Origin: Cytophagales bacterium
GTDB taxonomy: Bacteria > Bacteroidota > Bacteroidia > Cytophagales > Cyclobacteriaceae
Reading direction: 5' to 3'
Length of the DNA: 64,000 nt
Assembly: GCA_022360015.1 (NCBI GenBank)
Contig: JAKSDQ010000250.1
Span: 22,666-86,665, forward strand
Both the position numbers and the translations under genes were made by a program. The notes beneath the pieces are model-generated. The model had not been told where the DNA came from and searched no databases. It worked only from the letters and a program-made list of their open reading frames with translations. This document shows, one piece after another, positions 25,985 through 64,000 of the stretch; position 1 is the first letter of the stretch; every line of letters begins with the position of its first letter.

Positions 25985-26055
25985 TTAGTGCTTAAATACA
26001 TTGCATTAAAGTCAATGGCTTATGATAATGAAAGGATTATATTTAATTGGTTAAC

Positions 26056-26082: not shown

Positions 26083-26123
26083 GTATTTTGGCACTTTGGC
26101 AGCCATTGAAATGGTTGGGCCGG

Positions 26124-41142: not shown

Positions 41143-41173
41143 CCAATCATTTAAAGCATTTAAGATTTTTATT

Positions 41174-44536: not shown

Positions 44537-44579
44537 CGTGGAGAAGAACTATCTGAATAATATCAAAAATAATTGGGTT

Positions 44580-47500
44580 ATGAAAAAAGTTAAAGATTTA
44601 TTCATAAACAGATGGGCTTATCTGATAGGAATATGCCTTCAGCTCAGTTTCTCTACTTGCTATGCGCAGGGAGAAGGTTTGGTGCCAGATGCAGTAGAAC
44701 ATGCGGCATTGGTTGATCTATACAATAACCTGGATGGACCCAATTGGACTAATAAGACGAATTGGTTGCAGGGAACTACCAACACTGATTTTGAAAATTG
44801 GTGGGGAGTAAGTACATCCAATGGTGATGTGACTGGTATAAGTTTGCCACTCAATAACTTAATGGGAAGCATCCCATCAACAATGGGCAACCTTACCGCG
44901 TTAGTCAACCTCAATTTACACACAAATCAAATCACAGGAACAATACCGACTGAAGTGGGGGATTTGATTAACCTTTCTGCTCTGCATTTGCATAATAACC
45001 AACTCATCGGCAATATTCCAACCTCCTTAGGTAACCTATCTAATTTGACTGTATTAGAACTTAATTTTAATAGCTTAAGTGGAGATATTCCTGCCAGTTT
45101 GGGTAATCTGAACAATTTAGAACGACTTTATCTGTACAGCAATCAACTGACAGGTAGTATTCCTGCTACGCTTGGAAACCTGGTTAACTTAAAGCATCTA
45201 ATTGTTTCTTCTAATCAACTATCCGGTAGTATTCCGGCGACCTTAGGGAACCTTACCAACCTTGTTAACTTAAATTTACGGAGCAACCAGTTAACGGGAA
45301 ATATCCCTACAGAATTGGGGGGATTGAGCAATTTGTCTACCATGTATTTATTCCATAATCGACTTTCCGGGGACATTCCATCTTCACTAAGTAACCTGTC
45401 AAATTTAACTATACTAGACTTACATTATAATAATCTTAGTGGAAGTATACCCTCTAACTTAGGTAACTTAAATAATTTGCGGGAACTTTACCTATACAAT
45501 AATCAATTGACGGGGGCTATTCCTTCCTCACTCGGAAACCTGATTAACCTAAAGCACCTGATAGCTTCCACCAATCAACTATCAGGTAGCATTCCTTCAT
45601 CTTTAGGTAACCTCGTTAACCTGATTTCCTTAAACCTTCATACTAACCAACTAACAGGAAGCATTCCTGTGGAATTGGGCAATCTGGCCAATCTTTCTAC
45701 GCTATATTTGTATACAAATCAATTAAGCGGATCAATACCAAGCTCTTTGGGTAATTTGACCGGATTGATCTATCTTCATTTAAACAGTAATGCGCTAAGC
45801 GGTACTATACCTTCATCTATAGGAAACTTAAGTAATTTAATTCGCCTCAGGCTTTCCTGGAATAACCTTTCGGGTGAAATCCCCGCGTCTATAGGAAACC
45901 TGGCGAATCTCAAAGAATTGCTTTTATTTAATAATCAGCTTGGTGGATCAATACCATCAACAGTGGGGCAGCTATCCAATTTGGGGATATTGCATTTGCA
46001 GAAAAATTCTTTAGCGGGCAACATTCCGGATGAAATTGGTAACATGAACTCATTGTATTCTTTGTATTTGACTAGTAATAATCTATCCGGAACCATTCCA
46101 AATGCAATTGGCAACCTAACCGGATTACAATTTCTTCACCTCGATGATAATTCCTTTGGTGGTACTATTCCCAATTCCATCGGAAACCTAAATAATTTGC
46201 GGCGTTTGAGGCTGCATTTTAACAATTTATCTGGAGAAATACCTGAATCGATAGGTAATCTGACCAGTCTGCAAGAATTGCTTTTATATAATAACCAGCT
46301 TATTGGGTCTTTACCACCAACAATAGGCCGACTGTCAAATTTAGGGGTATTGCATTTGCAGACAAATTCTTTAACAGGCGGTATTCCATATGAAATTGGT
46401 AACTTGAACTTGCTGTATTCTTTGAATTTAAGTGGGAACCAACTGTCTGGAGCCATTCCGAATACAATCGGTAACTTATCTGAATTATTGTATCTTTATC
46501 TTGAAAATAATTTGTTAACTGGTAATATTCCCGCATCTATAGGAAACCTGAATAGTTTGATTTTCCTCCGGCTCCAATTCAATAACTTATCCGGTGAAAT
46601 ACCAGTGTCCGCAAGTAATCTAACCAATCTAACTCAATTGTTTTTGTATAATAACAATTTCGCTTCCTTTCCAAGCTTTGCAGGTAATACAAATGCTTCA
46701 AATCTGACTGTTAACATTAAAAACAATAAAATCGTATTTGAAGGTCTTGAAAGTAATTTTACAGCAGTGGATCAGCCCATTTTTGGTGCATTGATTTATG
46801 CCCCGCAAAGTACTGTTGGCACCTCTCAAACGATCGGTTTTCAAATTGGTAATCCGGTTACTTTAACCTTCCAAAGCATCGCTTTTAATAACCAATATCA
46901 GTGGCAAAAATTTAACGGAACCATTTGGCAGGATGTGTTTGGTGCAACTACCAATAATTATACCATAGCCAACACAACCGCAGGAGATATTGGTACGCAG
47001 TATCGTTGTAAGATCACCAATACCCGGGCCACGCAACTGACATTGTATACTGAATCCTACACCTTGGCGGAAGCGTTACCACCCATACCGAATCAGGCCT
47101 TGAACTACATCATCTCCAACACCATTACCGAAAAAGGTGTCACCGAAGACAATGCTATCAACAACCTCGCCGTAGAACAACTGGACAGGACCGTGGACTA
47201 CTTCGACGGCCTGGGCCGCCCTATCCAGTCGGTTATCGTTCAGGGCTCACCCCGTAAAAATGATGTGGTGCAGCACCGCGAGTATGATGCATTTGGCAGG
47301 GAGAACAAGGAGTATTTACCATACACAGCATATATGCATGAAGGTAACATCAAAAATAATGGTTCTTTTAAGGAAGACCCGCTGGGTGACTTATATACCT
47401 TTTACTATCCTGGCAATAACAGTGATCCTGTTAAAGATGTTGCCCGGGAATTCCATAAATATGCCCTAAAAGTTTTTGAACCCTCGCCCTTAAATCGTCT

Positions 47501-50500
47501 CATAGAGCAGGGTGCTGTGGGCAACCCCTGGCAGCCTAATCTTTTCACTGGTAAAGGCAAGACCCTCAAATTCCGCTATCATACCAACATCGCCAATCAG
47601 GTGCGGCTGTGGGAGTTAACAGCAGGCACACAGCTACCCACGAGCACCACGCACTATGCCCCTAACGAATTGATGCTCAATGAAACCGAGGACGAACATG
47701 GTGCTGAGACCCATGAGTTCGTCGACAAGCTGGGCAGGACGGTGCTGAAAGAAGTAGAAAACGTGATCAGCAATACCCAGGTAGAATGGCTGCAGACCTA
47801 CTATGTCTATGATGAGTTCAACAACCTGCGTTATGTTTTCCCTCCCAAAGCTACCAGGCTGTTGGGTGATGGCAACTTTACCCCATCCGGTCCTGATGAT
47901 CCCATTTTGAAAAACCTGGTCTTCCAGTACCACTATGATGGCAGGCAACGCATGATTATGAAAAAGGTGCCTGGCGCTGAGCCGGTGTACATGGTCTACG
48001 ATCAGTTTGACAGGCTGGTGTTTACCCAGGATGGCAACCAGTTTCAAGACAGCGAGTGGAGCTTTACCAAATATGACCCCCTGAACCGGCCAGTGCTGAC
48101 CGGCACCATGACCCTGGCCAATAGCTGGGGCACAGACAGGATGGCCTACCGAGATGGTGTGGAGGCTGGACTGGATACTTACTACACCAACCACTTACCC
48201 AATGATGCCAACTACCGTTATGAGTCCTACAGCGCTTCTGATACCTGGGGTTACACCGACCGCAGCTACCCGCCACTGACCTTGGGCGCCCATGAGATCC
48301 TGACCGTTACCTTCTATGATAACTATGACTTTATCGCTGATGGCCGGTTGGGGACCACAACGGTGAATTATGGCTTTGAACCTGAATTGGGGTTGTTGAA
48401 CATGGATACTTTTACCAGGGTCAAAGGCCAGGTGACCGGCTCCCGCACCCAGGTGTTGGGAGAAAATAAATACTTAAATACAGTCATCTACTACGATGAG
48501 CGCTACCGGGTGGTCCAGACGGTCACAGACAATTACACCGGCGGCTTTGACAGGGTGACTACTGAATACGACTTCGCAGGACGGGTGCTGCGCACGCAGC
48601 AGACCCACCGGCGGGGTACGGGCAGCTTTGAGGACCTGGTGGTGAACCAAAGCTTTACCTATGACCATGCCAGCCGGCTATTGAATACTTACCACCGTAT
48701 CAATAGCCAGGACTCGGTCCTTCTGACCGCCAACCGCTACAATGAAATCGGTGAGCTGGTGGAGAAAAACCTGCACAGCGCGCTGATGACCAATCCACAA
48801 TTCAAACAGTCGGTGGACTACCGCTATAACATCCGGGGATGGCTGATCAGGATCAATAACAGTGCGCTGACAACGGGCGGCATCAATACCGGGGACCAGG
48901 CACCGGATTATTTCGGCATGGCGCTGTATTATAACCTGAAAGTCCCCGGTTTAAACTATGACATGACCGGCACCGGGCAGGATCCCATGAACAGCCCTTT
49001 GCCCTATTTTGAGCAGCTATTGCAGGGACTGCCGTTAAAGCCGGTTATTTCCTACCAACTACCGGATATTTTTAACCGAAATCCTACTGCTTTCAAACAC
49101 CCGGTACCTGCGAAAATACAAAATGGCCATAAGGCTGGCTGGGGCCATAAGTTTGGCGTAGATTACCGGGGGGTAAATTCCGGGAAGGTCAACCCAGGAA
49201 AGATCAAGGCTAAAATGGCCAAAGACAAAAAACCCGGCATTGGCTTCTACAGCCCGCGGCAGTTGCCGGATAAAACCGGCAGGGTGTCGCATCATAACTG
49301 CAGCAGCCAGCAAAGTACTTCTCCGGTAGCCGTAGCCTCTGGCGAAGGACTCGGCACTTCACCTGTTATCTGCTTACAAGAACAGGATGTTTTATCCGGT
49401 GATGATGATGAGTCCGAAAGTTGGGCAGTACACCTCACCCCTGAAGTATTCCTGGATGTTGACCCCGCTACGCTGACAGCCTCCCTGGACGGCACCATTT
49501 GGGTCACCGGGGATTTTACCACCGGGGTGGCCTCAAAAGATAAGTCTTTGGGAAAGAAGGCTGGGAAGAACACATCCCTTCTCAGTGAGGAACTGTGGCT
49601 GGAGGCTGAGTGTGGCACAAGGGGTCCGAACTGGACCATGGCCAGTGATGCCTCGGCCTCTAACAACAACTACATGGTCATGCAGACAGGTACCGCCCAA
49701 ATGACCACCCCGCCTTCCACAGTCGCCGACCATTTAAGTTATACTTTCGACATCACCACTGCCGGAGATTATAAAGTCTGGGGCAGGGCTTTTACCACTA
49801 GTGCCAACGACGACTCGTTTTGGGTAAGGATGGATGGTGCAAGCTGGATCAAGTGGAATGCCATCCCTACCGGTAGCTGGTTGTGGGATGATATCCATGA
49901 CTCAGATAACTCGGGGGTGGCAGTCACTTTCAACCTTACCGCAGGCAGCCACACCCTGGATATTGCCTTCCGGGAGCCAGGGGCTAAAATTGATAAACTG
50001 TATATTTCTTCTACCGGAGTAGCCCCCACAGGTACAGGCCAAGCAGCCACTAACTGTGTGGCCACTGCTCCGCCGGCTGACCCCACAGGGCTTGTCACCC
50101 TCCGCACTTCATTCGACTACATCACCTTTAGCTGGGATGCCAATGCACAGATTGTGGATGACTACGCCGTTGAAAGGTCTGAAGATAACATCAATTTCAT
50201 CGCAGTGGGCACTGTCGCAGGAAATGCCCTTTCCTTCCAGGACCATACCGTACAGGCAGGCACCGGCTATTACTACCGCATCAAAGCCAACAACAGCCTG
50301 GGCAACTCAGGCTTTTCAACCTCCCTGAATGCATCATCCCTAGCTGACCCCGGGATCATTAAAGACCAGTTGCTCCTCTACCTGGACGCCCGCAACCCTG
50401 CCAGCTACCCCGGGTCGGGCAATACCTGGTATGATTTAAGCACTGGCACCAACGATGCCACCCTCAACGCCTATTCTTTTGATGGCACCGATTTGAGTTT

Positions 50501-53500
50501 TACCTACAACGGCACCCAGGTGATCACTGGCGAAAACCTGCCCATTGCCCAAAACCAGGCTTTCAGTGTAGGCTTTTGGATCAACCCATCGGACAACTCA
50601 AGGCCTAATATGGTGCGGAGCAGCTTTAATGTGGGAGCATTCATTTTCGGGGTGCGCAGTGGTTTTCCAGGTTCCATTCAGGCAGGTATCGACAACCTTG
50701 ATGAGAATGCCATGATCGCCCGGACAGATTTGCCGGCAGGACTGCTGGCCAATAACCAGGACCAGTATTTTGTATACACCTATGAAAACAACATCGCCTC
50801 GCTGTATAAGAACGGACAACACTTCATCAGCAAAGACATCGGCCCGATGACGGCGGCATGGGGCAAGTTTATCCTAAGTTATGCCCTGGGCCGGTTTAAT
50901 GTTGCCCAGGTCTACGGACGGGCCCTGACAGCGGATGAGGTGTGGCACAACTATTACATGGGTTATGGTCATACAAGCAGCACGGTAACTGTGCCCGCCA
51001 CCTCTACGGATGTTGTGGCCACGGCTTTATCGGTCAGCCAGGTATCCCTTACATGGAGCGATGTAGCCACCGATGAGGTGTACTACCTGGTGGAGCGGTC
51101 AACGGACGGGACCAACTTCACCCCGTTGAAATACCTGCCGGCCGGTGCCACTGCCCATGAAGATGTGGGCCTGAATGCAGCCACCGCTTACACCTACCGG
51201 GTGACAGCCGTAAATGCGGCGGGCAGTTCTGCCCCTTCAGCGAACCAAACCGCTACCACTGATCCACTGCCGGTGATCAACATTGTCAGCGATGGCCTGG
51301 AGTTGTACCTGGATGCAGGTCATGTGTCCAGCTACAATGGAGCAGGCACAGGCACGGTGTGGAATGATATCAGCGGCAAGAACCACCATGCCACTCTGGA
51401 TGAAGGAGTTGCTGTTTTATCCGGGCACCTGCGTTTTAACAACCGGGGATTCTCAGCACCGGTACCTGCCTTGACAGCAGGCATAACCAACTTTTCAGTG
51501 GGCTTCTGGATGCGGCCTACCCAGGCAGGGTATCGCAACAACAACCTGCAGGCGAGCGGCGCTGAATTTGGTAACGGGGCCTTTTTCAGCCGCAATGATG
51601 CGGTCAATTTCAGGTATGTGACGGGGGTGACCGCCACCAACATGTTTGACAGTTACAGTGTCTACATTTTGGATGAATGGGCCTATTTTGTGTTTACCTA
51701 TGATAACGGTACTGCTCGCATGTATAAAAACGGGGTGGAGTTCAGTAACAGCCCAAAGGTGCAGGACCCGGTAACGGTAGACTTTGAAAACCTGATGTTG
51801 AAACAGGGGTATGGTGATTTTGACCTGTTACAGGTGTATTCCAAAACACTGACTGCCCAGGAGGTTTTTCAGAACTATGAAATCCACAAAAACCGCTACT
51901 TTGTGCCCACCCAGGTACCTGCAGCACCCACAGACCTGGCTGTCAATACCCTCGGATCCTATGAAATCAAAATCACCTGGACAGACAATGCAGACAACGA
52001 GGACAAATTTGTCGTTGAGATGGCTAGTGATATCAACGGCCCTTTTACGGTGCTCGACGAGGTGATTGTCAATGTCAATAACTATACCCATGATAACCTG
52101 ACCCCCAACCAGATAGTTTACTTCCGGGTGAAGGCAGAGAACAGTCTGGGCAGTTCAGGTTACAGTAATGTACTTACGGCCAAAACTTTATCTGCCAAGA
52201 CCACCCCACCTTTGCCGCCCACAGGCTTGAGTGCCAGTGTGCAGTCCTACAACAGGATCAGGCTGATCTGGAACGATGTGGCCACCCATGAGGATGAATA
52301 CCAGGTAGAAAGTTCCACGGATGGCACTAACTACAGTGTTTTAGCTGTCTTGCCGTTTAATACCAGCTCCTATGAGGACACAGGTCTTGAACCCAACACC
52401 ACCTATCACTACCGGGTAGCAGCACTTAATTCCAGGGGAAGTTCGGGGTACAGCAACACGGTCAGTGGCATCACCACCTCTTTCCCGGATTTCTCCGTGG
52501 TCACCAGCGGCCTGGAATTGTACCTGGATGCAACCCTGACGATGAGTTATGACGGCAGTGGCCCTGACTGGTATGATTTGAGCGGCAAGGGCAATGATGC
52601 CACCCTGGATGCGGGTGTGGTCAAACAAAACGGCAGGCTGCACTTTACCGATCAGGGTTTTGAGGCGCCCCTGCCGGGACTGCCGGCGGGTACCACCCAC
52701 TTTTCAGTAGGCTTCTGGCTGCGGCCTGATGCACAGGGATATACCTACAACAATGTCAGTTCTGTCAACGCGGCCCATCTGGTAGGCGCCTACTATGCTA
52801 CCAATGAAAGCGGGACCAGGATGGTGACCGGTGTGCTGGAGAACCGTTTCGGGCCTTACAATATTTATCAATTGGGTAAGTGGGTATACATCGTTTATAC
52901 TTATGATAATGGTGTGGGCCGATTGTACAGGAACGGCACTTTGCGTGATGGTCCTGCCAACCAGGGGCCGGTGCAAGTAGATTTTCAGAAGATGATCTAT
53001 ACCAAGGGCCATGGGGACTTTGAAGTGCTGCAGGTGTATAACAGGACGCTGAGCGAGGCCGAGGTATTGCAGAACTACAATGCGGACAAAGACCGCTACC
53101 GCAGTACTGTAGCTATACCGGCGGCCCCTTCCGGGTTAGCGGCGAGTGTGGCTTCAAAATCACAGATTAACCTGGCCTGGACCGACAATGCCACTGATGA
53201 GGGGAATTATGTGGTAGAGTTTTCAACAGACGGTGGGGTGAGCTATCGGCCCCTGGTGAGTTTACCTTCTGCGGCGGCGGCCTATGAACATGCAGGTTTG
53301 TCTCCCGGGCAGACGGTTTACTACCGGGTGCAGGCCATCAACTCAACGGGTAATTCAGCTTACAGCAATGTAGTAAGTGCGGCCACATTGCTGGAAGAAC
53401 CTGCCGGGTTAAGTGGCACCCCGTACTTGTCTACCCGTATAGATTTGTCCTGGGTAGATAACGCTGAAAACGAAGTGGGCTATCAGATAGAAAGAAAGGG

Positions 53501-56372
53501 GGTAACCGAAGGTACCTACACCCTGGTCCATACCACTGCGGCAGATGTGAGCACTCATAGTGATGCAGCCCTTCCTACTGAGACGACCTACAACTACCGG
53601 GTCAGGGCCGTAAACGGGGCCAACTATTCGGTATATACCCCTGAGATAACCGTGACCACCGGCCTTACCCCGCCGACAGGGCTTTCGGCCTCCGGCGTAT
53701 CAGCCTTTGAGATGGACCTCACCTGGCAGGACAACACTTCGGCCGAGAGTGGTTATGTGTTGGAGCGGTCGCTGTCCAGCAGCAGCGGTTTCGAACAGGT
53801 GGCCAGCCTAGGGGCGAATGTGACTGCCTTCAGGGATGAAGGCCTGGTGCCTGAGACCACTTATTTCTACCGGCTGCAGGCTGTAGATGCCAACGGTCAT
53901 TCGGATTACAGTAATGTGGCCGGTGCTTCCACCTTGCCGCTGTTATTTTCCAACCCTGACCTGGCATACAAGGCTGAGCCTTATTACAACGGCAACATCT
54001 CAGCCATCACCTGGCAGACCTACAATTCCGGGCAAGAGCAGGGCTACACCTATACCTATGATCACGTAAACCGTATCAAGAGCGCCAGCCATGTGTATGC
54101 TACCGGTACGAACACCTGGAACATGAATGAGGCAGGGTTCAGTGTGGGCAATATCATGTATGACCGGAATGGCAACATCCAAAGCCTGAAAAGGCAGGCA
54201 AAGAACCTGTATGGGGTCTATGTGCTGGATGATCTGGACTACAGCTATGAAGATGCGGAAGTGTCCAACCGCCTGCAGGCTGTCATAGATAGTTCAGGTG
54301 TAGGGGAGGGTTTTAAGGACGGCAATACTTCGGCTATTGATTACAGTTATGATGCCAACGGCAATTTGACTAGTGATGCCAACAAAGACATCGCTAGTAT
54401 CGAATACAACCTCCTGAACCTGCCCAGACGGATTGTGTTTGCCGATGGTAATGAGATATTGTACACCTACGATGCGGCGGGTACTAAGCTCAGAAAGGAG
54501 GTACGGGAAGATGTGGAGGGCACGGTGGTGAAGACCGTCACCGACTACACCTCTGGGGTGCAGTACACCATCAACGATTACCAGGGAGCGGGGGAGACCA
54601 CCAGCCGTGACTTTGTGATGACCCCTGAGGGCAGGGCCACCACAGAGGACGCAGAGGCTGTGAGTACCGCCTATAATTACGAATATAACCTCACGGACCA
54701 TTTAGGGAATGTCCGGGTGACCTTCACGACCAGGGAGGAGCAGCCCGATGAGTATGTGGCTACTTTTGAAACAAATGAGCAGCCGGTCGAAGCGCTGGAT
54801 TTTCAGAACTATGGTGATGCTACGATTATCAGCAATACCTTGTATAATCATACCGCAGGCGTTGGATCGGATCAGTCTGTCAGGTTAAGTGGTGCGCCAG
54901 GTGAGATTATCGGGTTGGCTAAATCGTTAGCCGTAGTGCCGGGGGATGTGGTCCACATTGAGGCTTATGCCAAGTATTGGTCTCCGACTGCCAATGCTAC
55001 CAACCTGGGTGGTATCTTAGGCGCTGTAGCTGATGCTTTCGGGGTAGCCAATCCGGCCACACCCGATGCCCAGGCGGCCTATAATGCGTTAAGTGATCTG
55101 TTTAGTATAGGCCCGTTTCTGGACGCTTCGGACTGGGAGGATCCGGCTGCTCCCAAGGCCTTTATCAACTATATTTTATTTGATCAGGGTTATGAGCCTT
55201 ATTTCTATGAAATCGACCAGATCGATATTACTGCAAATGAAGATGGGACGGACATTCCCCATGATTACCTTACATTAACTGCAAATGTCACTAAACCTGG
55301 TTATATTTACATTTATCTGTCCAATGAGAATGATAAGTTGGTGGATACGTTCTTTGATGATTTTAAGATAACGCATACCAAGTCTCCTATTATCTCAGCG
55401 GATGATTATTATCCGTTTGGGTTGCAAATTGCGCAGAATAGCTATCAGAGAGAAGGAGCGACCGATCAGAAGTACAAGTACCAAGGTCAAGAAAGGCAGT
55501 TTGATTTTGATTTAGACTGGGATATGTTTAGGTTCCGAACCCATGATCCTGCTATTGCAAGATTTCTACAGGTTGATCCGCTTTCTGACGATTATGTTTA
55601 TAACAGCCCTTATGCTTTTGCAGAAAATAAACTAGGACTTGGTACTGAACTTGAAGGAGCCGAGTTGAATTTATTTCCTTGGCTAGCAGCAGATGCTGTT
55701 GTAAATCCTAGTGGAGTTGGAGCTCATTCATTGGGGATATTAAAAGGACTTGAGAATAATGTGACGGGTTTAATAGATGCTGTTACGCATCCTATTGAGA
55801 CGGCGAAAGGTTTGGGTAATTTGGCGTTATTAGGAGCTTCGCAAGGTAATGCGGCCACTTCAATAGCAATAGATAATGCTCTTGGTACGAACTCTTTTGA
55901 AACGGGCGCAGCACTTGGAAATGCCATAGAACAAGGAGTCGATAACCTGATTAGTGGAGATGGGCTCGAACGTGGTGAAGTGATTGGAGAAATAGCAGGG
56001 GCTGTTATTGGTGCAAAAGGTACGACGGCTGCTACAAAGGCTGTTTCAACGGCTGTAAAAGCTAATAAAACAGTTAAGGTTTTTCGAGTTTTTGGAGGTG
56101 ATGCTAAAGCCAAAGGTTTTTCTTTTACTCCAGATAATCCAAAAAGTGTAGCTAATTTTAGAGATGCAGCAGGCCTACCATCCGGAGGAGCAAGTGGAGT
56201 TACTAATACAGGTCGCTTTGTTATTGAGGGGACGGTTAAAAATAAGCATATTATTAAAAGGAAGTTAGCAGATCCACTAGACGGTAATGCTGGAAAAGGG
56301 GTTCGTGAATTTATCATAGACCCTGAGAATGTGAAAATACAGAGAGTTTCAGGAGTAAACCCAGAGTTTTAG
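44580..56372 (+). CDS. Giant RHS polymorphic-toxin protein: signal peptide, ~26 LRRs, DUF6443/YD, CBM-like, 3 LamG-like and ~7 FN3 domains, RHS-associated core, C-terminal toxin-like tip
   Basis: ~3,930 aa from ATG at 44580 (MKKVKDLFINRWAYLIGICLQLSFSTCYAQ); LxGxIPxxLGNL repeats; LDRTVDYFDGLGRPIQSV; EAECGTRGPNWTMA; LELYLDA repeats; DHLGNVRVTF; YYPFGLQIAQNSYQ...RFLQVDPLSDDYVYNSPYAFAENK. Confidence 0.88.
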   Translation: MKKVKDLFINRWAYLIGICLQLSFSTCYAQGEGLVPDAVEHAALVDLYNNLDGPNWTNKTNWLQGTTNTDFENWWGVSTSNGDVTGISLPLNNLMGSIPSTMGNLTALVNLNLHTNQITGTIPTEVGDLINLSALHLHNNQLIGNIPTSLGNLSNLTVLELNFNSLSGDIPASLGNLNNLERLYLYSNQLTGSIPATLGNLVNLKHLIVSSNQLSGSIPATLGNLTNLVNLNLRSNQLTGNIPTELGGLSNLSTMYLFHNRLSGDIPSSLSNLSNLTILDLHYNNLSGSIPSNLGNLNNLRELYLYNNQLTGAIPSSLGNLINLKHLIASTNQLSGSIPSSLGNLVNLISLNLHTNQLTGSIPVELGNLANLSTLYLYTNQLSGSIPSSLGNLTGLIYLHLNSNALSGTIPSSIGNLSNLIRLRLSWNNLSGEIPASIGNLANLKELLLFNNQLGGSIPSTVGQLSNLGILHLQKNSLAGNIPDEIGNMNSLYSLYLTSNNLSGTIPNAIGNLTGLQFLHLDDNSFGGTIPNSIGNLNNLRRLRLHFNNLSGEIPESIGNLTSLQELLLYNNQLIGSLPPTIGRLSNLGVLHLQTNSLTGGIPYEIGNLNLLYSLNLSGNQLSGAIPNTIGNLSELLYLYLENNLLTGNIPASIGNLNSLIFLRLQFNNLSGEIPVSASNLTNLTQLFLYNNNFASFPSFAGNTNASNLTVNIKNNKIVFEGLESNFTAVDQPIFGALIYAPQSTVGTSQTIGFQIGNPVTLTFQSIAFNNQYQWQKFNGTIWQDVFGATTNNYTIANTTAGDIGTQYRCKITNTRATQLTLYTESYTLAEALPPIPNQALNYIISNTITEKGVTEDNAINNLAVEQLDRTVDYFDGLGRPIQSVIVQGSPRKNDVVQHREYDAFGRENKEYLPYTAYMHEGNIKNNGSFKEDPLGDLYTFYYPGNNSDPVKDVAREFHKYALKVFEPSPLNRLIEQGAVGNPWQPNLFTGKGKTLKFRYHTNIANQVRLWELTAGTQLPTSTTHYAPNELMLNETEDEHGAETHEFVDKLGRTVLKEVENVISNTQVEWLQTYYVYDEFNNLRYVFPPKATRLLGDGNFTPSGPDDPILKNLVFQYHYDGRQRMIMKKVPGAEPVYMVYDQFDRLVFTQDGNQFQDSEWSFTKYDPLNRPVLTGTMTLANSWGTDRMAYRDGVEAGLDTYYTNHLPNDANYRYESYSASDTWGYTDRSYPPLTLGAHEILTVTFYDNYDFIADGRLGTTTVNYGFEPELGLLNMDTFTRVKGQVTGSRTQVLGENKYLNTVIYYDERYRVVQTVTDNYTGGFDRVTTEYDFAGRVLRTQQTHRRGTGSFEDLVVNQSFTYDHASRLLNTYHRINSQDSVLLTANRYNEIGELVEKNLHSALMTNPQFKQSVDYRYNIRGWLIRINNSALTTGGINTGDQAPDYFGMALYYNLKVPGLNYDMTGTGQDPMNSPLPYFEQLLQGLPLKPVISYQLPDIFNRNPTAFKHPVPAKIQNGHKAGWGHKFGVDYRGVNSGKVNPGKIKAKMAKDKKPGIGFYSPRQLPDKTGRVSHHNCSSQQSTSPVAVASGEGLGTSPVICLQEQDVLSGDDDESESWAVHLTPEVFLDVDPATLTASLDGTIWVTGDFTTGVASKDKSLGKKAGKNTSLLSEELWLEAECGTRGPNWTMASDASASNNNYMVMQTGTAQMTTPPSTVADHLSYTFDITTAGDYKVWGRAFTTSANDDSFWVRMDGASWIKWNAIPTGSWLWDDIHDSDNSGVAVTFNLTAGSHTLDIAFREPGAKIDKLYISSTGVAPTGTGQAATNCVATAPPADPTGLVTLRTSFDYITFSWDANAQIVDDYAVERSEDNINFIAVGTVAGNALSFQDHTVQAGTGYYYRIKANNSLGNSGFSTSLNASSLADPGIIKDQLLLYLDARNPASYPGSGNTWYDLSTGTNDATLNAYSFDGTDLSFTYNGTQVITGENLPIAQNQAFSVGFWINPSDNSRPNMVRSSFNVGAFIFGVRSGFPGSIQAGIDNLDENAMIARTDLPAGLLANNQDQYFVYTYENNIASLYKNGQHFISKDIGPMTAAWGKFILSYALGRFNVAQVYGRALTADEVWHNYYMGYGHTSSTVTVPATSTDVVATALSVSQVSLTWSDVATDEVYYLVERSTDGTNFTPLKYLPAGATAHEDVGLNAATAYTYRVTAVNAAGSSAPSANQTATTDPLPVINIVSDGLELYLDAGHVSSYNGAGTGTVWNDISGKNHHATLDEGVAVLSGHLRFNNRGFSAPVPALTAGITNFSVGFWMRPTQAGYRNNNLQASGAEFGNGAFFSRNDAVNFRYVTGVTATNMFDSYSVYILDEWAYFVFTYDNGTARMYKNGVEFSNSPKVQDPVTVDFENLMLKQGYGDFDLLQVYSKTLTAQEVFQNYEIHKNRYFVPTQVPAAPTDLAVNTLGSYEIKITWTDNADNEDKFVVEMASDINGPFTVLDEVIVNVNNYTHDNLTPNQIVYFRVKAENSLGSSGYSNVLTAKTLSAKTTPPLPPTGLSASVQSYNRIRLIWNDVATHEDEYQVESSTDGTNYSVLAVLPFNTSSYEDTGLEPNTTYHYRVAALNSRGSSGYSNTVSGITTSFPDFSVVTSGLELYLDATLTMSYDGSGPDWYDLSGKGNDATLDAGVVKQNGRLHFTDQGFEAPLPGLPAGTTHFSVGFWLRPDAQGYTYNNVSSVNAAHLVGAYYATNESGTRMVTGVLENRFGPYNIYQLGKWVYIVYTYDNGVGRLYRNGTLRDGPANQGPVQVDFQKMIYTKGHGDFEVLQVYNRTLSEAEVLQNYNADKDRYRSTVAIPAAPSGLAASVASKSQINLAWTDNATDEGNYVVEFSTDGGVSYRPLVSLPSAAAAYEHAGLSPGQTVYYRVQAINSTGNSAYSNVVSAATLLEEPAGLSGTPYLSTRIDLSWVDNAENEVGYQIERKGVTEGTYTLVHTTAADVSTHSDAALPTETTYNYRVRAVNGANYSVYTPEITVTTGLTPPTGLSASGVSAFEMDLTWQDNTSAESGYVLERSLSSSSGFEQVASLGANVTAFRDEGLVPETTYFYRLQAVDANGHSDYSNVAGASTLPLLFSNPDLAYKAEPYYNGNISAITWQTYNSGQEQGYTYTYDHVNRIKSASHVYATGTNTWNMNEAGFSVGNIMYDRNGNIQSLKRQAKNLYGVYVLDDLDYSYEDAEVSNRLQAVIDSSGVGEGFKDGNTSAIDYSYDANGNLTSDANKDIASIEYNLLNLPRRIVFADGNEILYTYDAAGTKLRKEVREDVEGTVVKTVTDYTSGVQYTINDYQGAGETTSRDFVMTPEGRATTEDAEAVSTAYNYEYNLTDHLGNVRVTFTTREEQPDEYVATFETNEQPVEALDFQNYGDATIISNTLYNHTAGVGSDQSVRLSGAPGEIIGLAKSLAVVPGDVVHIEAYAKYWSPTANATNLGGILGAVADAFGVANPATPDAQAAYNALSDLFSIGPFLDASDWEDPAAPKAFINYILFDQGYEPYFYEIDQIDITANEDGTDIPHDYLTLTANVTKPGYIYIYLSNENDKLVDTFFDDFKITHTKSPIISADDYYPFGLQIAQNSYQREGATDQKYKYQGQERQFDFDLDWDMFRFRTHDPAIARFLQVDPLSDDYVYNSPYAFAENKLGLGTELEGAELNLFPWLAADAVVNPSGVGAHSLGILKGLENNVTGLIDAVTHPIETAKGLGNLALLGASQGNAATSIAIDNALGTNSFETGAALGNAIEQGVDNLISGDGLERGEVIGEIAGAVIGAKGTTAATKAVSTAVKANKTVKVFRVFGGDAKAKGFSFTPDNPKSVANFRDAAGLPSGGASGVTNTGRFVIEGTVKNKHIIKRKLADPLDGNAGKGVREFIIDPENVKIQRVSGVNPEF

Positions 56373-56374
56373 TT

Positions 56375-56746
56375 ATGGAGTACAAAAAGTATTATTTATC
56401 ATCTTTAGATAGTTATCAATTTACGGAAATACGTGAACTTGAAGTTTTAAGAGAAATTGTCATAGAACCTAAATCTAAAGAGGCGTGGTTAGTTAAAGTA
56501 AATCCTTCTGTAATTGGGCAAAACTTTGGGTTAGGAGGTGAGGATATTAATTATTTGATTTTGACACCAAGACATAAAGGTGAAAACATGCACCCTCTTC
56601 CAAAATTTCCGTGTTTCGTACATATCGCTCGCATATTATCTAATCATTTGCCTCCTGTTACAGAAACAACAATGAGATCAAAAGAATTAGAAACAATTGG
56701 ATGGGGGGAGATTTATAAAAGACGCCCCTCTCATTCTCCAGACTGA
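56375..56746 (+). CDS. Putative immunity protein for the RHS tip
   Basis: 123 aa; starts 3 bp after the RHS stop, same strand, A/T-rich like the tip. Confidence 0.5.
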   Translation: MEYKKYYLSSLDSYQFTEIRELEVLREIVIEPKSKEAWLVKVNPSVIGQNFGLGGEDINYLILTPRHKGENMHPLPKFPCFVHIARILSNHLPPVTETTMRSKELETIGWGEIYKRRPSHSPD

Positions 56747-57175
56747 CAGGAGCCATATTTGTTTGGTTAAATACGAAGGTGTTTTAAAAAAAACAACAAT
56801 ATAAGGCAAAAAGCCTGGTCTCATTGGCCAGGTTTTTTTCATTGAATAGCCTTGCTTTACATTATTGATCATCGCATCCAAAGCATAAAGGATACAGGCT
56901 TTATCTATTTCGGGGAACCTGGTAATGTCATTTAATCGCCTGAGCATAGAAGGGTCTTTTAAAAGCTCACGTTCTTCGGTCTCCCCCAAAAGATACCCTA
57001 CGGTGGTATCCAACACATCCGCCAGTTTTTTAACTACATCAATAGTGGGTTTTACTTCATCCCTTTCATACTTTTCAATAATGGAATGATAAGAGTCAAT
57101 TTGCTTGGCAAGTTCGGCCTGAGAAAACCCTTTTTCTTCTCTGCATTCTCTTAATTTTTTACCAAAGGATGTCAT
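56687..57175 (-). CDS. XRE-family HTH regulator; C-terminal ~50 aa is probable terminator read-through
   Basis: MTSFGKKLRECREEKGFSQAELAKQIDSYHSIIEKYERDEVKPTIDVVKKLADVLDTTVGYLL; tail KTWPMRPGF... is translated hairpin. Confidence 0.8.
   Translation of the reverse strand: MTSFGKKLRECREEKGFSQAELAKQIDSYHSIIEKYERDEVKPTIDVVKKLADVLDTTVGYLLGETEERELLKDPSMLRRLNDITRFPEIDKACILYALDAMINNVKQGYSMKKTWPMRPGFLPYIVVFFKTPSYLTKQIWLLSVWRMRGASFINLPPSNCF
56810..56838 (-). terminator. Hairpin behind XRE gene 1
   Basis: GCCTGG-tctcatt-GGCCAGG-TTTTTTT region; same CCTGGC/GCCAGG+T-run design as 62311-62343. Confidence 0.6.
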
Positions 57176-57361
57176 GTGTTGTAATATTTATGGTACAAAA
57201 AACCTTTTTTCACAGAAATTTCACATGAGGGAAAATGTTATCTTGCGAAATTGCTTCCACCTGTTACAAGTTCATTTAAATACGGGGCTGGTGAAATGAA
57301 TTAAAAAAACTTTAAAAATGATTAAATTAGTTGCGTTAAGCAATTATAACGAAACAAGTTC

Positions 57362-57595
57362 ATGAATTACACAGATAGAATAGTTATAGACCCGGGGATC
57401 ATGTTAGGCAAGCCGGTGATAAAAGGCACCAGGATTACAGTTGAGTTGATACTAAGAAAGTTGTCCGAAGGGCTGTCTATTGAGCAGGTAATTAAGGCTT
57501 ATCCCCAATTATCAAAAGAAGATATATATGCGGCCTTGACATTTGCCTCTGATTTAATAGCTAATGAGGAGGTGATCATACCCAAAGCCTCGTGA
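57362..57595 (+). CDS. DUF433 antitoxin-like protein
   Basis: 77 aa; RIVIDPGIMLGKPVIKGTRITVELILRKLSEGLSIEQVIKAYPQLSKEDIYAAL. Confidence 0.9.
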   Translation: MNYTDRIVIDPGIMLGKPVIKGTRITVELILRKLSEGLSIEQVIKAYPQLSKEDIYAALTFASDLIANEEVIIPKAS

Positions 57596-57942
57596 TCCTG
57601 GCAGACGAGAACATTGATGCTCATATTATCGATTATCTTCGCTCGAAGGGTAAAGAAGTATATTCGGTGAGAGAAAATCATCCAGGAATTGCGGACGAGC
57701 AAGTAATAGCGTTATCCAAAGACCCACCCAGGATTATTTTAACAGAGGACAAGGATTTTGGGGAATGGGTTTATGCCCATAATGAAAAGCACATCAGTGT
57801 TATTTTGTTACGTTATCAATACCAGGATAGAAGTTTAATACTAAATCATTTACTAATGTTAATGGAGAGTCGTAATGAGGATTTATACAGTAAATTTACG
57901 ACGATAACCGCTAAAAAAATACGCATTCGTTCGCTGAAATGA
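57592..57942 (+). CDS. DUF5615 PIN-like toxin
   Basis: 116 aa, GTG start overlapping the DUF433 stop by 4 bp; LADENIDAHIIDYLRSKGKEV, IILTEDKDFGEWVYAH. Confidence 0.9.
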   Translation: MILADENIDAHIIDYLRSKGKEVYSVRENHPGIADEQVIALSKDPPRIILTEDKDFGEWVYAHNEKHISVILLRYQYQDRSLILNHLLMLMESRNEDLYSKFTTITAKKIRIRSLK

Positions 57943-57950
57943 CGCAAGCG

Positions 57951-58000
57951 ATCCCGCTAAGCTAGCCGTCCTTTTTCCATATCACGCAGGTAAAGCGGTG
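57951..58000 (+). repeat. Dispersed repeat module 1, copy A
   Basis: atCCCGCTAAGCTAgCCGTCCTTTTTCCATAtcacgcagGTAAAGCgGTG; matches 62185-62222 and 63793-63844. Confidence 0.85.
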
Positions 58001-58098
58001 TGGCTGCATTCCAGGCCTTGCGCTGTCAGCCGCGCCACGCCCTTGTTTTTTGCCTACTCTTCTGCCGGCTACTCACCGACAGGCTTCCTTCGGGATGC

Positions 58099-58157
58099 GG
58101 AATGTTGACCTTTTTCTTTTCAATAGAAAACCAACTGCAAGAAAAATGTTATCTTGC
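58099..58157 (+). repeat. Dispersed repeat module 2, copy A
   Basis: GGAATGTTGACCTTTTTCTTTTCAATAGAAAACCAACTGcAAGAAAAATGTTATCTTGC; near-identical to 63948-64000. Confidence 0.85.
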
Positions 58158-58249
58158 TGCCAGGTATTATGAAGGCGCTGAAAGTTCTTTTACAGGTTGT
58201 GCCGGTCAGTGTCCGACCGAGCTAAAAACTCCGTGTAGGATTAGTAGAA

Positions 58250-59265
58250 ACGTTCTTTGATGATTTTAGATAACGCATACCAAGTCTCCTATTATCTCAG
58301 CGGATGATTATTATCCTTTCGGGCTGCAGATAGCTCAACATAGTTACCAAAGAGAAGGAGCAACCGATCAGAATTATAAGTTCCAGGGGCAGGAACATCA
58401 GGATGACCTGGATTTAGGCTGGGTGCAGTTTAAGTATAGAATGCACGATCCGGCCATCGGTAGGTTTATGGTAGTTGATCCGCTGGCAGAAGATTACTTG
58501 CATAATAGCCCCTATGCTTTTAGTGAGAATAAAGTTACAGCGCATATTGAATTAGAAGGATTGGAGGCCTTTAGTGTTGCGACGTCGACTTTTATGCTTC
58601 AAACGCATACGGTAGCGAATGCCAATTCAGGAGGTAATCCCGGTGTTGGGGATTTCATAAGGGCTGCCGCACAAGTAGCATTTTTTAGTACCAGAATAGG
58701 TGGGGGATTAGCTAAATTTTCACAGGGAGCCCAGTTGAAAGTGGCTAATACCGGTGATTTTGCACAAAATGCCGGAAGTAATATCCAGAAAGCAATAGAT
58801 TCCGGAACCGATCCAAATGCAATACAGCAAAATTTTGAACAAGTCGACACGGAAGCTAATGCACTAATGCTTGAAGGCGGTGCGGATATTGCTTTGGGAG
58901 CAGCAGAACTTCAATTTCAATTGGCAACAGGAGCAATGTCAGCAGGGTCATCTTCTGCAACGGCTGCTGGAGCGGTTGATGATGCATCAAACTTAGTAAG
59001 AAAATCAAGCCCATTTGATTTACAAACTACTCATGGGCTGACTAAATCAAAAAAACAATTTAGTTTGTTAAAAGCAGATATAAAAGAAAAAGGAATAACG
59101 GAGTCAATTAAATTTGTAGAGCATAATGGTACTAAGTTCGTAGTTGATGGTCATCATCGTTTAAGGGCAGCGAAGGAGTTAGGGATCAAAGAAGTGCCAA
59201 TTGAACAAGTTCAGTTACCTTTTAGAGGTTATAAATCGGTAGACGACCTAATATATTCTTATTGA
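58250..59265 (+). pseudogene. Displaced start-less RHS tip cassette: RHS-associated core plus ParB-like toxin domain
   Basis: 58250-58316 near-identical to 55347-55414; YYPFGLQIAQHSYQREGATDQNYKFQGQ...DPAIGRFMVVDPLAEDYLHNSPYAFSENK; C-terminus VVDGHHRLRAAKELGIKEVPIEQV; upstream TAG at 58267 from a 1-bp deletion. Confidence 0.8.
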
Positions 59266-59268
59266 TTA

Positions 59269-59721
59269 ATGGCAATCTGGCAATATAGAATGATATTATT
59301 ACCCAAGGAAAGCTTGGTTAAGCATTTGGGTGAACTTCATGAAAAAGTAAACGATAAAGATTATAATAGAATTGATTTTTGGGCTGGCACTAAATATTCC
59401 AGCTCAATTTTCAGTTACTTTGATCAAATTCTTCCTAAGAACAAATCTTGGAGTGATGAAATAATCCTTTATGGAGATACTAATTCTAATTGTATAGAAA
59501 TCGTTGAAGAAAATGATTCTATTTCAGAAGCAATAATCAGAATAGATTTTAGAACAGAATATTCCTTGGCTTTAAATGCGGTATTAGAATTCTGTATTTT
59601 GAATTCATTAATTTTATTGGATAACAATTTACGCATTATGGATCTCAACGAAACAAATATTAATGCACAAATTTTTAATAGTAAAGAGTACAAGAAATAT
59701 AAGGTTTTAGAAGATCAATAA
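59269..59721 (+). CDS. Putative immunity protein for the ParB-like tip
   Basis: 150 aa; starts 3 bp after the tip stop codon, same strand. Confidence 0.5.
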   Translation: MAIWQYRMILLPKESLVKHLGELHEKVNDKDYNRIDFWAGTKYSSSIFSYFDQILPKNKSWSDEIILYGDTNSNCIEIVEENDSISEAIIRIDFRTEYSLALNAVLEFCILNSLILLDNNLRIMDLNETNINAQIFNSKEYKKYKVLEDQ

Positions 59722-60122
59722 AATAAAGTCTGGCTAGTTTCCGAACCCAAATACTGAAAGAACACTGTACAATCGAGTATACAGCTCCGACCAATTTAGT
59801 CTGGGTGTGCCTCTCACACCACCGTACTTTTTCTTACGTCGAAACTTCGGTATTGGCACTACAGATGTCATGTATGGCGTTTCACCGGATCTGAAAATGA
59901 TATTTAAGGTAATAGTCAAGTATAGATTAATAACTTCTGTGTCTAAACCTGAATAGGGTGATTGAAGTAAGTATTATGAATAAATATTTGCGCTAAATTC
60001 TATGGGCTAAAAGCACTATTTCCAAATAGCGTCTGAATCTTATTCATTTAATATTCAAAATTAGAGACTAGCCGGCGGCATTTTATTTTTACATTATTTA
60101 CAAAGTGATAAATAACTTAGAT

Positions 60123-61658
60123 ATGAAAATAAATATAATTTTTACGACAGTAATGCTGTCAATTGTAACTTTCACAAATGCACAAATACAAGAGGTTTCA
60201 CCTCCATCTACCAATACAGCTGCCCTAGGTAAGTCTAATGCCACCGCGTTGTTTAATTTAGGCTACGATGGCAGGAACGATTTATCGGGGGGAAGGTATT
60301 TGGATAATTTACAAATAAAGAATAATGGCAATGAAGAAACAGTAAAAAGATTCACCTTTGATTATACCTACATGTCTAGTGATAATTACTGTGAAGAGGC
60401 GAAAAGCGTATGTGATAATCATTGTCCCCCAGGTATCCAAGAGTGTTTTGACGAATGTTACAACATCTATCAAAGCTGTGCCGGGCTTGCTGATGACGGA
60501 AATTTTCATGACAAATATAGGATGTTTTTGTCAGCAGTTTATGAAACTGAGGCGGGAGTAGATGACCTTTGCTATTGTGAAAAAAGACTAGAATCATGCA
60601 ATAGCCAGTGTCCAAATGTACAGGAGTGCTTCGATGAATGTTATGTAGCTTTTCAATCATGTGAAATAACTAATCAATCCGGCACAGATTGTTCTCAAGT
60701 TGTCTTATCAAAATTGCCGGCTTATCAATTTAGTTATAATTCCTTATCACTTCCTCCAAGACTATCAAAGCAACAGGATTTTTGGGGATATTACAATGCA
60801 AATGCTGAGAATTCCTTAATTCCTCGAGTTTATGTTTATCCAGCCTACAATGAAATCAGAAAAAAATATAGTTATCTCCCTCGTGATAATTATCAAGGGA
60901 ATAGTTACCTAATGAACGGTGCAAATAGAAGAGCGAATCCGCCATTTGCACAAGCTGGAATTCTAACCAAAATCACGTACCCAACAGGTGGATCGAGTAC
61001 CTATGGGTACAAATCAAATGAATATTATGACATAGATATCCAAAAAAACATACAAGGAGGGGGCCTAAGGATAGAGCAGATAACCTTATTCGATGGGATT
61101 GATCATGGAAATGATATTGTGAAGAATTACTCTTACAATAAATATAGTGATTCTAGTCAGTCGAGCGGAGTTTTGGTTAATTATCCATCTTTCGTTAGTG
61201 TAGCTCTAATTGAAAGAGAATCAGTTAGTAAAGTTGATCATCCTTTCAAGGAAAATATTATTTATAACAGGTACGATCATGCAGGCAATATTTGTGAGTA
61301 TCGGCAGGCAAATGGGATCCCTGTTTCTATGATATGGGGGTATAACAAGCAATATCCTATTACTAAAATAGAAAATGCAACCTATGATGATGTGGCTAAT
61401 AGTCTATGAGTTTCTATAGAGAATGTTTTGAGTTTAGATGAAACCGATTTGTCTCAAATAGAGTCTTTGAGAAGTAGTATGCCAAATTCAATGGTAGAAA
61501 CATATAGATATAAACCTTTAATTGGAGTTACTAGCATTACGGATGCAAACGGTCTTACAATATACTATGAGTATGATGAATTCAATCGTATAAAAAACAT
61601 TAAAGATTATGAAGGAAATATTTTAAAAAGTATTGAATACAATTATAGAGAAAATTAA
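60123..61658 (+). pseudogene. Third RHS-like gene, internally shortened, interrupted by in-frame TGA at 61407-61409
   Basis: Signal peptide MKINIIFTTVMLSIVTFTNAQ; VSPPSTNTAALGK; YAHAGNICEYRQANGIPVSMIWGYNKQYPI-like segment (read YDHAGNICEYRQANGIPVSMIWGYNKQYPI); frame continues after TGA to YYEYDEFNRIKNIKDYEGNILKSIEYNYREN. Confidence 0.8.
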
Positions 61659-62310: not shown

Positions 62311-62343
62311 AAAAAACCTGGCTAGAGATAGCCAGGTTTTTTT
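62311..62343 (-). terminator. Hairpin terminator behind XRE gene 2
   Basis: AAAAACCTGGCTA-gaga-TAGCCAGGTTTTTTTT. Confidence 0.75.
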
Positions 62344-62675
62344 TACCGCAAAAGGGAGTCCATTTTATACTTAGCGAAGAAAGCGTCCATCAGGGCGTAT
62401 ATATGGTTTTTGTCTTCAGGGTTGAGCTTTTCCAACAGCTTTAACCTTTTAAGCGCACCCTTATCGATATTCTGATATTCTCCGTCTTTTACCAAAAAAT
62501 CAATCGTAACGTTCAGGGCATCGACAATTTTAGCGCCGGTGTCGATGGAAGGTTTGATCTCGTCCCTTTCATACTTGCCAATGATATCGCCGGAAGTACC
62601 GACAGCCTTTCCTAAGTCGGACTGTGTCATTTTCATCTGCTTTCTTGCATAGGCAATTTGTTGTCCAAACGTCAT
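62343..62675 (-). CDS. XRE-family HTH transcriptional regulator
   Basis: 110 aa; MTFGQQIAYARKQMKMTQSDLGKAVGTSGDIIGKYERDEIKPSIDTGAKIVDALNVTIDFLV. Confidence 0.88.
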   Translation of the reverse strand: MTFGQQIAYARKQMKMTQSDLGKAVGTSGDIIGKYERDEIKPSIDTGAKIVDALNVTIDFLVKDGEYQNIDKGALKRLKLLEKLNPEDKNHIYALMDAFFAKYKMDSLLR

Positions 62676-62992
62676 GATATATCGTATTTATGAGCTAAAA
62701 AATGAGAATTATGTAAAAATAAATGAATTAAAAGTCAGAAAAAATTTTAATAATGCTTGTTTAAAACGGGGAAAGATATAAGGGTAGTACAGGTATTTGC
62801 AGGGCATAAACAGACCTCATCGACAGAAAGGTACAAACAAACCCATATAGAAGAATTAAAAGCGGCAGTGATGAAAAGGCATCCTTTGGGTTGACAAATG
62901 GCATTTTGATGGGTTTACTATTTTCAATGAAAGGGGATTTAAGAGTAATTACTGATCAGTGTTCATGGTCTAACTGGTTAGTGGTGTTACGG

Positions 62993-63030
62993 GGAACCAC
63001 CCTGGCCGGCGTCCGCTGGCCAGGGGTTCC
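62993..63030. repeat. Strong GC-rich imperfect hairpin
   Basis: GGAACCaccCTGGCC-ggcgtccgct-GGCCAGgGGTTCC between XRE2 and the next TA pair. Confidence 0.6.
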
Positions 63031-63123
63031 TTTTAACCACGCAAGCGTTCGCGCTGAAAGAGAAGTTAAAAGAACAACTATTAAAATAAAGTCGTATTTT
63101 TAAGAAAAAATAAGCGAATAAAG

Positions 63124-63348
63124 ATGGCAGAAAGAACGATAGATACTGAATTACTGGGATATTTTCATTCATTGCCCAAACCTCAGCAGTTGGATGTGCT
63201 CAACTATTTAAAGTCTTTGATAAAGAAAGGCTCCCGGCCACAAAAAGGTTTATTGAAGCTTGCCGGCAGTATATCGCCAAAGGATTTAAAGCTGATGAAA
63301 GCGGCCATAAACGAAGGTTGTGAGCAAATCGATGAAGATGAGTGGTAG
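63124..63348 (+). CDS. Antitoxin-like protein (DUF2281/VapB-like)
   Basis: 74 aa; LLGYFHSLPKPQQLDVLNYLKSLIKK; overlaps downstream PIN gene. Confidence 0.7.
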   Translation: MAERTIDTELLGYFHSLPKPQQLDVLNYLKSLIKKGSRPQKGLLKLAGSISPKDLKLMKAAINEGCEQIDEDEW

Positions 63349-63724
63349 TTATTTGCTTGACACCAATATTGTTATTGCTTTTTATGAGGCAGAGCCCAAA
63401 GTGGTAGAAAAGGTAACTGGATCAGAGATATATCTTCCATATGTAGTGATCGGGGAATTAAGGTATGGTGCTGAGAAGTCCGGCCGGAAGTCCTCTAACC
63501 AAAAACAGATCGATGCGTTAGTAGAGCAGGTGACCATTTTACCCGGATCAGCAGCAACTGCTAAACATTATGGGATTATAAAAAGCCAGTTAAAAAAGAA
63601 AGGTCGACCTATTCCGGAGAATGATATATGGATAGCAGCCATCGCCAAAGAATATGATCTTATATTGGTTACACGAGACGATCATTTTTCTCATATTGAA
63701 GGGATAAAACAAGAGGCCTGGTAA
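63332..63724 (+). CDS. VapC-like PIN-domain toxin
   Basis: SGSYLLDTNIVIAFYEAEP, VVIGELRYGA, PENDIWIAAIAKEYDLILVTRDDHF; intact acidic residues; start is within 63320-63332 region. Confidence 0.9.
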   Translation: MKMSGSYLLDTNIVIAFYEAEPKVVEKVTGSEIYLPYVVIGELRYGAEKSGRKSSNQKQIDALVEQVTILPGSAATAKHYGIIKSQLKKKGRPIPENDIWIAAIAKEYDLILVTRDDHFSHIEGIKQEAW

Positions 63725-63792
63725 CATAAACCTTGTCACCCATTGAAACAGCCCCTCAATAACCTTGTTCATTTAAAGCCACCAACATTTAT

Positions 63793-63844
63793 CCGTTCCC
63801 GCTAAGCTAACCGTCCTTTTTCCATAGCATGCTCGTAAAGCAGT
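63793..63844 (+). repeat. Dispersed repeat module 1, copy C
   Basis: CGTTCCCGCTAAGCTAaCCGTCCTTTTTCCATAGCAtgctcGTAAAGCaGTG. Confidence 0.85.
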
Positions 63845-63947
63845 GTTCAATCGTTTAGGAAGCTTGCTTGGAGCATCACGGCTCAGGGTAAAAGTCGAAA
63901 GCATCCGGTATAACTAAAGGCGTTCATCCGGATTTTTACCCTTCACC

Positions 63948-64000
63948 GGAATGTTGACCTTTTTCTTTTCAATAGAAAACCAACTGAAAGAAAAATGTTA
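63948..64000 (+). repeat. Dispersed repeat module 2, copy C, truncated by window end
   Basis: CGGAATGTTGACCTTTTTCTTTTCAATAGAAAACCAACTGaAAGAAAAATGTTA. Confidence 0.85.

Follow-up and report, generated by a model that had tools for sequence, protein, structure and literature searches.

We analysed a stretch of 64,000 nucleotides (hereafter the window) from the draft genome of a Cytophagales bacterium (contig JAKSDQ010000250.1 of assembly GCA_022360015.1, positions 22,666 to 86,665), in which a giant RHS gene is followed by a second, start-less RHS core that carries a different toxin tip and its own immunity gene. A helix-turn-helix (HTH) regulator, a toxin–antitoxin (TA) pair, a GC-rich repeat and a conserved sequence end lie between the two cores, and it is the origin of this displaced tip that concerns us here. 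The features of the locus are as follows:

44469-56372, + strand: main (expressed-type) RHS gene with the present tip, an open frame of 3967 aa with Rhs_assc_core (TIGR03696) in its C-terminal part
55347-55414, + strand: left copy of the tract (TFFDDFKITHTKSPIISADDYYP), proposed attL, equal to 58250-58316 but for one deletion
55415-56372, + strand: core remainder and present toxin tip, right of the junction, on our model cargo of the element
56375-56746, + strand: candidate immunity gene of the present tip, directly 3′ of it
56687-57175, − strand: divergent Xre-type HTH regulator of the element (HTH_3), 65% identical over 107 aa to the element HTH regulator of genome G254
57362-57595, + strand: DUF433 antitoxin-like gene of the TA pair (PF04255, E=2.8e-24)
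57592-57942, + strand: DUF5615 PIN-like toxin of the TA pair (PF18480, E=4.7e-17)
57949-58100, + strand: GC-rich repeat after the element's TA genes, with copies after TA genes at window 62176 and 63794, at C284:537 and on C85 (two further contigs of this genome)
58108-58252, + strand: right end of the element (TTTCAA..GAAAA..TATCTT..GTTCTTT..GAGCTAAAAA..GTGTAGG..AACG), aligned with 10 other ends
58250-58316, + strand: right copy of the tract, proposed attR, with one A deleted and TAG at 58267
58270-59265, + strand: displaced, start-less RHS core and tip, an open frame of 331 codons (Rhs_assc_core, E=1.8e-11)
59002-59262, + strand: ParB/sulfiredoxin-superfamily-like toxin domain of the displaced tip (weak PF08857/PF02195)
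59269-59721, + strand: immunity gene of the displaced tip, with a counterpart gene in Flavobacterium

A first-pass annotation had described the 3′ part of this locus as a displaced, start-less rhs-CT/immunity module, and its observations held up on inspection. The tract copies at 55347-55414 and 58250-58316 are equal except for one A missing from the second; the deletion makes a stop codon (TAG at 58267-58269); no obvious ATG precedes the displaced core, the first ATG, GTG or TTG being the GTG at 58423, 51 codons into the frame that is open over 58270-59265; and the TA pair and repeat precede the displaced tip, with the immunity gene 59269-59721 behind it. As in orphan rhs-CT modules, a core fragment and tip (58270-59265) thus lie behind a full-length rhs gene (44469-56372) and lack translation initiation signals. 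Displaced frame and main gene share a reading register, 58270 corresponding to 55368 and both agreeing with the start at 44469. An 18-base piece of the tract has only these two occurrences, and even with 3 mismatches allowed 0.16 chance matches would be expected. Past the tract, RHS homology runs on downstream at 76% over ~270 nt (55362-55631 and 58264-58533), and upstream it begins slightly before the tract (55338 and 58241) and then breaks off. The copies form an attachment-type direct repeat flanking the intervening unit, longer than the 8–14 bp found on plasmid pAT2 and in genome G411 (below), and are best read as a left and right attachment footprint. Recombination across the tract could put the displaced tip back on the main gene, although an in-frame product would arise only if the crossover fell within 58269-58316, the 48 bp on the 3′ side of the deleted base.

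The displaced toxin tip has a relative, 72% identical, in Flavobacterium supellecticarium, where the gene behind that tip encodes a protein 37% identical over 151 aligned positions to the displaced immunity protein. The pair is conserved there behind a different RHS backbone, again as an orphan and as one of four, and this conservation suggests that 59269-59721 is the cognate immunity gene. On that Flavobacterium contig (NZ_SSNZ01000008.1) the four orphan tips lie behind one RHS gene without a recombinase element between them, and all four open with the same MRNLNGTPTATEEGVLAFGSLPLWFIGGNAGATQ linker and an ATG. The displaced toxin domain matched ParB, SbnI and sulfiredoxin entries of the PDB with E values of 0.006-0.5, and a ParB-like identity stays weakly indicated. 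The AlphaFold model of the tip domain, built from a two-sequence alignment, reached a mean predicted local distance difference test score of only 55. The candidate immunity gene of the present tip (56375-56746) had no match among the families searched.

The right end of the intervening unit adjoins the displaced RHS core motif at about 58252, and the same junction recurs twice elsewhere in the draft genome (C284:1230 and C284:2614). At the window and both C284 sites the same ~140 bp of non-RHS sequence runs into the same FFDDFK codons; upstream element and core are common to the three junctions, and the sequences and tips beyond the core differ. At both C284 junctions a TAA lies in frame a few codons before the RHS part begins. 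An alternative reading of 58108-58252 as a promoter/operator, based on the inverted repeat GCAAGA..TCTTGC, was dropped when the stretch aligned as a conserved element end, and an Rfam search of 44-64 kb returned no known RNA.

Eleven such ends align, with the order TTTCAAnTGAAA, an A-rich block, TATCTT, often a short hairpin-like stretch, AACGTTCTTT, a variable stretch and AAAA-GTKGTGCRGGG, immediately after which come the RHS codons. The hairpin-like stretch just before AACGTTCTTT, found in many ends (in the window at 58158-58190), could be a terminator or a recombination structure. An exact 31-mer recovered 3 of 391 genomes of the order and was judged too strict; we used a sequence model of the end instead, which found 21 copies in 9 of the 391 genomes and which the window end matches with E=7.6e-20. 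Fourteen of the 21 run directly into an RHS core motif, one into a DUF1016 gene and six into other sequence. The motifs that follow are mostly YRYGFNGKE or YLYNGKE, with FFDDFK in the window genome, YYPFG in G033 and DYGAR in G298. To the left of the same codons, the main and displaced copies of G254, G574 and G212 have only a few bases in common.

The 31-mer is exact in the distant genome G183, of another family of the order, where it stands beside a recombinase gene whose product has 56% identity to the C85 enzyme. Across the order and phylum, recombinase searches led to loci of about twenty genomes that have a common plan, in which an RHS gene with tip and immunity gene is followed by a divergent Xre-type HTH regulator, a primase, tyrosine recombinases 1 and 2, often a TA pair, a GC-rich stretch, the conserved end and then another RHS core with a different tip. 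The primase slot holds a CHC2/Toprim primase-ATPase or its ATPase part (500-940 aa), and the recombinases match the general Phage_integrase family. In 14 aligned members recombinase 1 conserves the catalytic R-K-HxxR-H-Y set, and recombinase 2 has the tyrosine in 14/14 and lacks the box-I arginine, so that a complete and an incomplete enzyme form a paired, unequal system. An RHS core lies beside the element at 20 of 22 recombinase-2 loci vs 0 of 12 control loci of other tyrosine recombinases; the two exceptions lie on contigs of 3.7 and 4.3 kb, which stop within the element or just beyond it. These cores were scored with a small hidden Markov model, whose nine training sequences came from some of the tested loci, since an initial regular expression was too narrow and missed clear cases. 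Its end (58108-58252), its HTH regulator and the order of TA genes and GC-rich repeat mark 55415-58252 as a decayed unit of this element family. The first-pass annotation had mentioned the TA pair and repeat in front of the displaced tip; they are present, and rather than being incidental they are the tail of an element of this tip-carrying family, which integrates at conserved RHS core codons.

What the mobile unit contains is best seen where it is repeated. On plasmid pAT2 of Aureibacter tunicatorum a direct repeat (9782-17964 and 17951-26133, 99.98%) has a period of exactly 8169 bp, occurring twice, and the unit starts at a site in the main RHS gene. It comprises core-tip, immunity gene (WP_309943303.1, one protein accession in both copies), HTH regulator, CHC2 protein, two recombinases and end. 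The 14-bp site TAT[CG]G[GT]TATGGATT lies at 9782, 17951 and 26120, in the YRYGF codons of YRYGFNGKE; the flanks switch within 8 shared bp, TATGGATT, to which the crossover is confined, and an unrelated tip (polymorphic toxin type 47) lies behind the third site. G411 has a tandem unit of 8108 bp with all five junctions beginning at TATCTCTACAACGG, and in both pAT2 and G411 the segment equivalent to 55415-56372 falls inside the repeating unit. A 7668-bp contig (C10) of G428 has identical 299-bp ends that start at the TATCTCTACAACGG site. In G183 a DUF1016 nuclease gene is interrupted by the element together with its tip: the N-terminal half reads in frame into the RHS core-tip, the nuclease remainder resumes past the element end, the Pfam coordinates meet (DUF1016_N and YhcG_C 2-58, YhcG_C 55-151) and ATACCG is shared at the insertion, so that tip and backbone moved together. 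Type I restriction-modification genes adjoin this element (G183:C4 186000-206000), and an insertion sequence interrupts the tip that it carries. Over 3.5 kb the backbones of G411 and G428 have 90% identity, but their tips are unrelated, and G219 has two backbones 99.8% identical with different tips; by these comparisons the tip slot of the element is variable. Searches of plasmids and phages for free circles found pAT2 and no circle.

Further units and copies are present in the window genome itself, in which displaced-core relatives lie on contigs C284 (two), C81 and C85. Beyond the displaced module we identified, at 62343-64000, what by its gene content is another decayed unit of the family with a recombinase relic:

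62343-62675, − strand: HTH regulator, 81% identical to the element HTH regulator of G428
62679-62891, + strand: decayed tyrosine recombinase 2 with 5 stops (48% identity over 74 aa, E=2.7e-13)
63124-63724, + strand: VapBC-like TA pair (PIN domain, E=1.9e-18), with a paralogue at C284:57-461
63794-64000, + strand: GC-rich stretch and start of another element end, the last 54 bases being 98% identical to 58098-58151

This last end is cut by the contig end, the window's contig (C149) stopping at 64000. Around the junctions of the genome recur the divergent HTH regulator, the GC-rich repeat and a TA pair of changing type (DUF433/DUF5615, VapBC or ParE). C149 ends and C284 begins inside the repeat family, and the two are therefore probably parts of one array broken by assembly. 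The small contig C85 (1-3249) holds a third tip and immunity gene and one intact-looking recombinase 2, in the order end, YRYGFNGKE core, tip, immunity gene, tyrosine recombinase, ParE-type TA pair and GC repeat, and probably belongs in the assembly gap after window 64000. Between the displaced units, window 60105-61658 is related to the N-terminal part of the gene at 41120-44536 but is shortened and broken. Outside the array, C81 (8700-9100) and C5 carry more orphan RHS core fragments; on C81 two cassette remnants are joined without an element end.

We propose, with a probability of roughly 0.8, that the displaced tip and its immunity gene are the former 3′ end of the RHS gene, or of an earlier array unit, displaced by a tip-carrying integrative element. 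On this model an element bearing its own RHS core-tip and immunity gene, HTH regulator, primase, two recombinases, TA pair, GC-rich stretch and end would recombine site-specifically at conserved codons of the RHS core. The host gene would become fused to the tip of the element, and the old core-tip-immunity segment would be left start-less beyond the right end of the element. The present tip and immunity gene of the main gene would then be element cargo and 58270-59721 the tip that it displaced. Later decay of 55415-58252 would have removed the primase and recombinases and spared the HTH regulator, TA pair, GC repeat and end, and the remains of at least one further unit would follow. Comparison of sequences establishes the unit structure, its tandem periodicity, the tip-carrying element in a non-RHS gene and the conserved ends; from these we infer that the recombinases catalyse the reaction and that the window arose by such an insertion, and the displaced tip is presumably silent and restorable by recombination. 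Since pAT2 and G183 show the element to carry a tip, the displaced tip of the window is best read as a formerly expressed one. The first-pass annotation had suggested that the tract could drive tip swapping onto the expressed gene. Tips do get exchanged, as the different tips at the three junctions and the Flavobacterium pair on another backbone attest, but what drives the exchange is probably site-specific integration, homologous recombination being a further possibility, and the displaced tip would be a former tip and not a silent donor that landed there by chance.

Several observations weigh against this proposal. The window junction lies at FFDDFK and the best-proven junctions at YxYGFNGKE/YLYNGKE, and the one intact-looking recombinase 2 of the genome (C85) sits with a YRYGFNGKE junction, not with FFDDFK. 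Seven of the 21 detected ends have no RHS core after them, and the G428 contig could be a collapsed tandem instead of a circle. By the ORF list, a CHC2/Toprim primase and tyrosine recombinases are absent between 55415 and 58252, the ORFs between the two cores being those of the HTH, DUF433 and DUF5615 proteins; we therefore term the window unit a decayed remnant, assigned to the family by its remnants alone, and not an intact member. Finally, the near-identity of the tract reaches ~48 bp beyond the needed crossover and is largely common to all copies in the genome, a pattern suggestive of gene conversion or of a longer recognition site. Because the 67-bp identity thus exceeds the crossover site, either gene conversion or homologous recombination at a later time probably contributed as well.

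The same near-identity past the minimal crossover site would fit a classical orphan rhs-CT, formed by duplication and homologous recombination within the rhs locus with a TA-bearing mobile element between the copies by chance. Salmonella has start-less orphan modules behind full rhs genes, with recombination over a near-identical tract (522 bp, 95%; PMC3967940), and the four orphans of Flavobacterium supellecticarium have no element between them. This origin is nevertheless quite unlikely: in three copies of this genome the element end meets the RHS core at one and the same base, and in unrelated genomes other ends of the family adjoin RHS core motifs, which argues against random insertion; moreover, the repeating units of pAT2 and G411 include the tip, and in G183 it has moved into a DUF1016 gene. 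A variant of our proposal rather than its opposite is that single core-tip-immunity cassettes move between core sites through the recombinases, as in integrons. In some displaced cassettes of G411 the site at the start follows immediately on the preceding immunity gene and no element end intervenes, those of C81 look similar, and backbones 90-99.8% identical carry unrelated tips. We regard such cassette mobility as unlikely, given that the periodic units of pAT2 and G411 include the whole backbone, that homologous recombination in the core could also change tips on a fixed backbone and that no cassette-only circle was seen.

A stand-alone gene for the displaced tip, with a promoter and start codon of its own, might be argued from its open frame of 331 codons and the GTG at 58423. 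Such a start would fall inside the RHS core, an in-frame stop lies just upstream (TAG at 58267, with TAA upstream at the other two junctions), and the sequence in front is a shared element end, all of which makes this very improbable. An assembly artefact with collapsed repeats would be in keeping with a draft genome of 340 contigs in which C149, C284 and C85 break inside the repeat family. It is extremely improbable, as the window finding lies within one contig, the copies are distinct and diverged, and the same architecture recurs on pAT2, deposited as a complete plasmid, and in several genomes on large contigs.

The displacement of the tip by a tip-carrying element, as we propose it, shares traits with several known systems. 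The orphan rhs-CT/rhsI modules of Enterobacteriaceae (Koskiniemi et al. 2014, PMC3967940), whose arrangement has been put down to duplication and homologous recombination, likewise consist of a core fragment and tip with an immunity gene downstream of a complete rhs gene; they too lack a translation start, have a tract near-identical to the main gene and could conceivably exchange tips by recombination. Here, by contrast, what lies between the copies is a specific integrative element, of a family with recombinases and a conserved end, that carries the new tip. The rAID arrays resemble the element family in being from Bacteroidota and in having a tyrosine recombinase, arrays linked to polymorphic-toxin immunity and a conserved intergenic sequence. 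They consist of co-oriented orphan immunity genes without toxins behind one recombinase, whereas the intact units here have two recombinases, hold core-tip and immunity gene, primase, HTH regulator and TA pair, and adjoin an RHS gene. In E. coli Rhs loci, too, mobile-element sequence lies between displaced Rhs core and tip fragments; this is H-rpt, which encodes a DDE-type transposase and for which neither carriage of a tip nor integration at core codons is known. Some integrative elements and prophages enter a protein-coding gene and replace its 3′ end with one of their own, with the same site-specific intragenic integration and completion of the reading frame by element sequence. Unlike theirs, the 3′ end supplied here encodes another toxin domain and comes with an immunity gene of its own, so that the function of the gene would be changed. 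We found no description of such an element in the open-access literature, a search outside which most subscription journals lay and which is not proof of absence.

With moderate confidence we extend the proposal to the phylum: Bacteroidota-wide integrative elements would rewrite the ends of RHS genes with tip and immunity cargo, successive insertions building integron-like arrays of which only the first tip is expressed and which the paired recombinases could excise or reshuffle. The gain of tip and immunity gene and the piling up of orphan tips in polymorphic toxins are usually ascribed to homologous recombination; an element that carries both and targets the conserved stretch before the tip would explain the two in one step. 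It would also allow the expressed tip to be predicted, offer a recombination site that can be tested directly, and link RHS weapons, TA pairs and tip arrays to one definable mobile family. Intact relatives elsewhere in Bacteroidota suggest that such elements swap the weapons used between bacteria.
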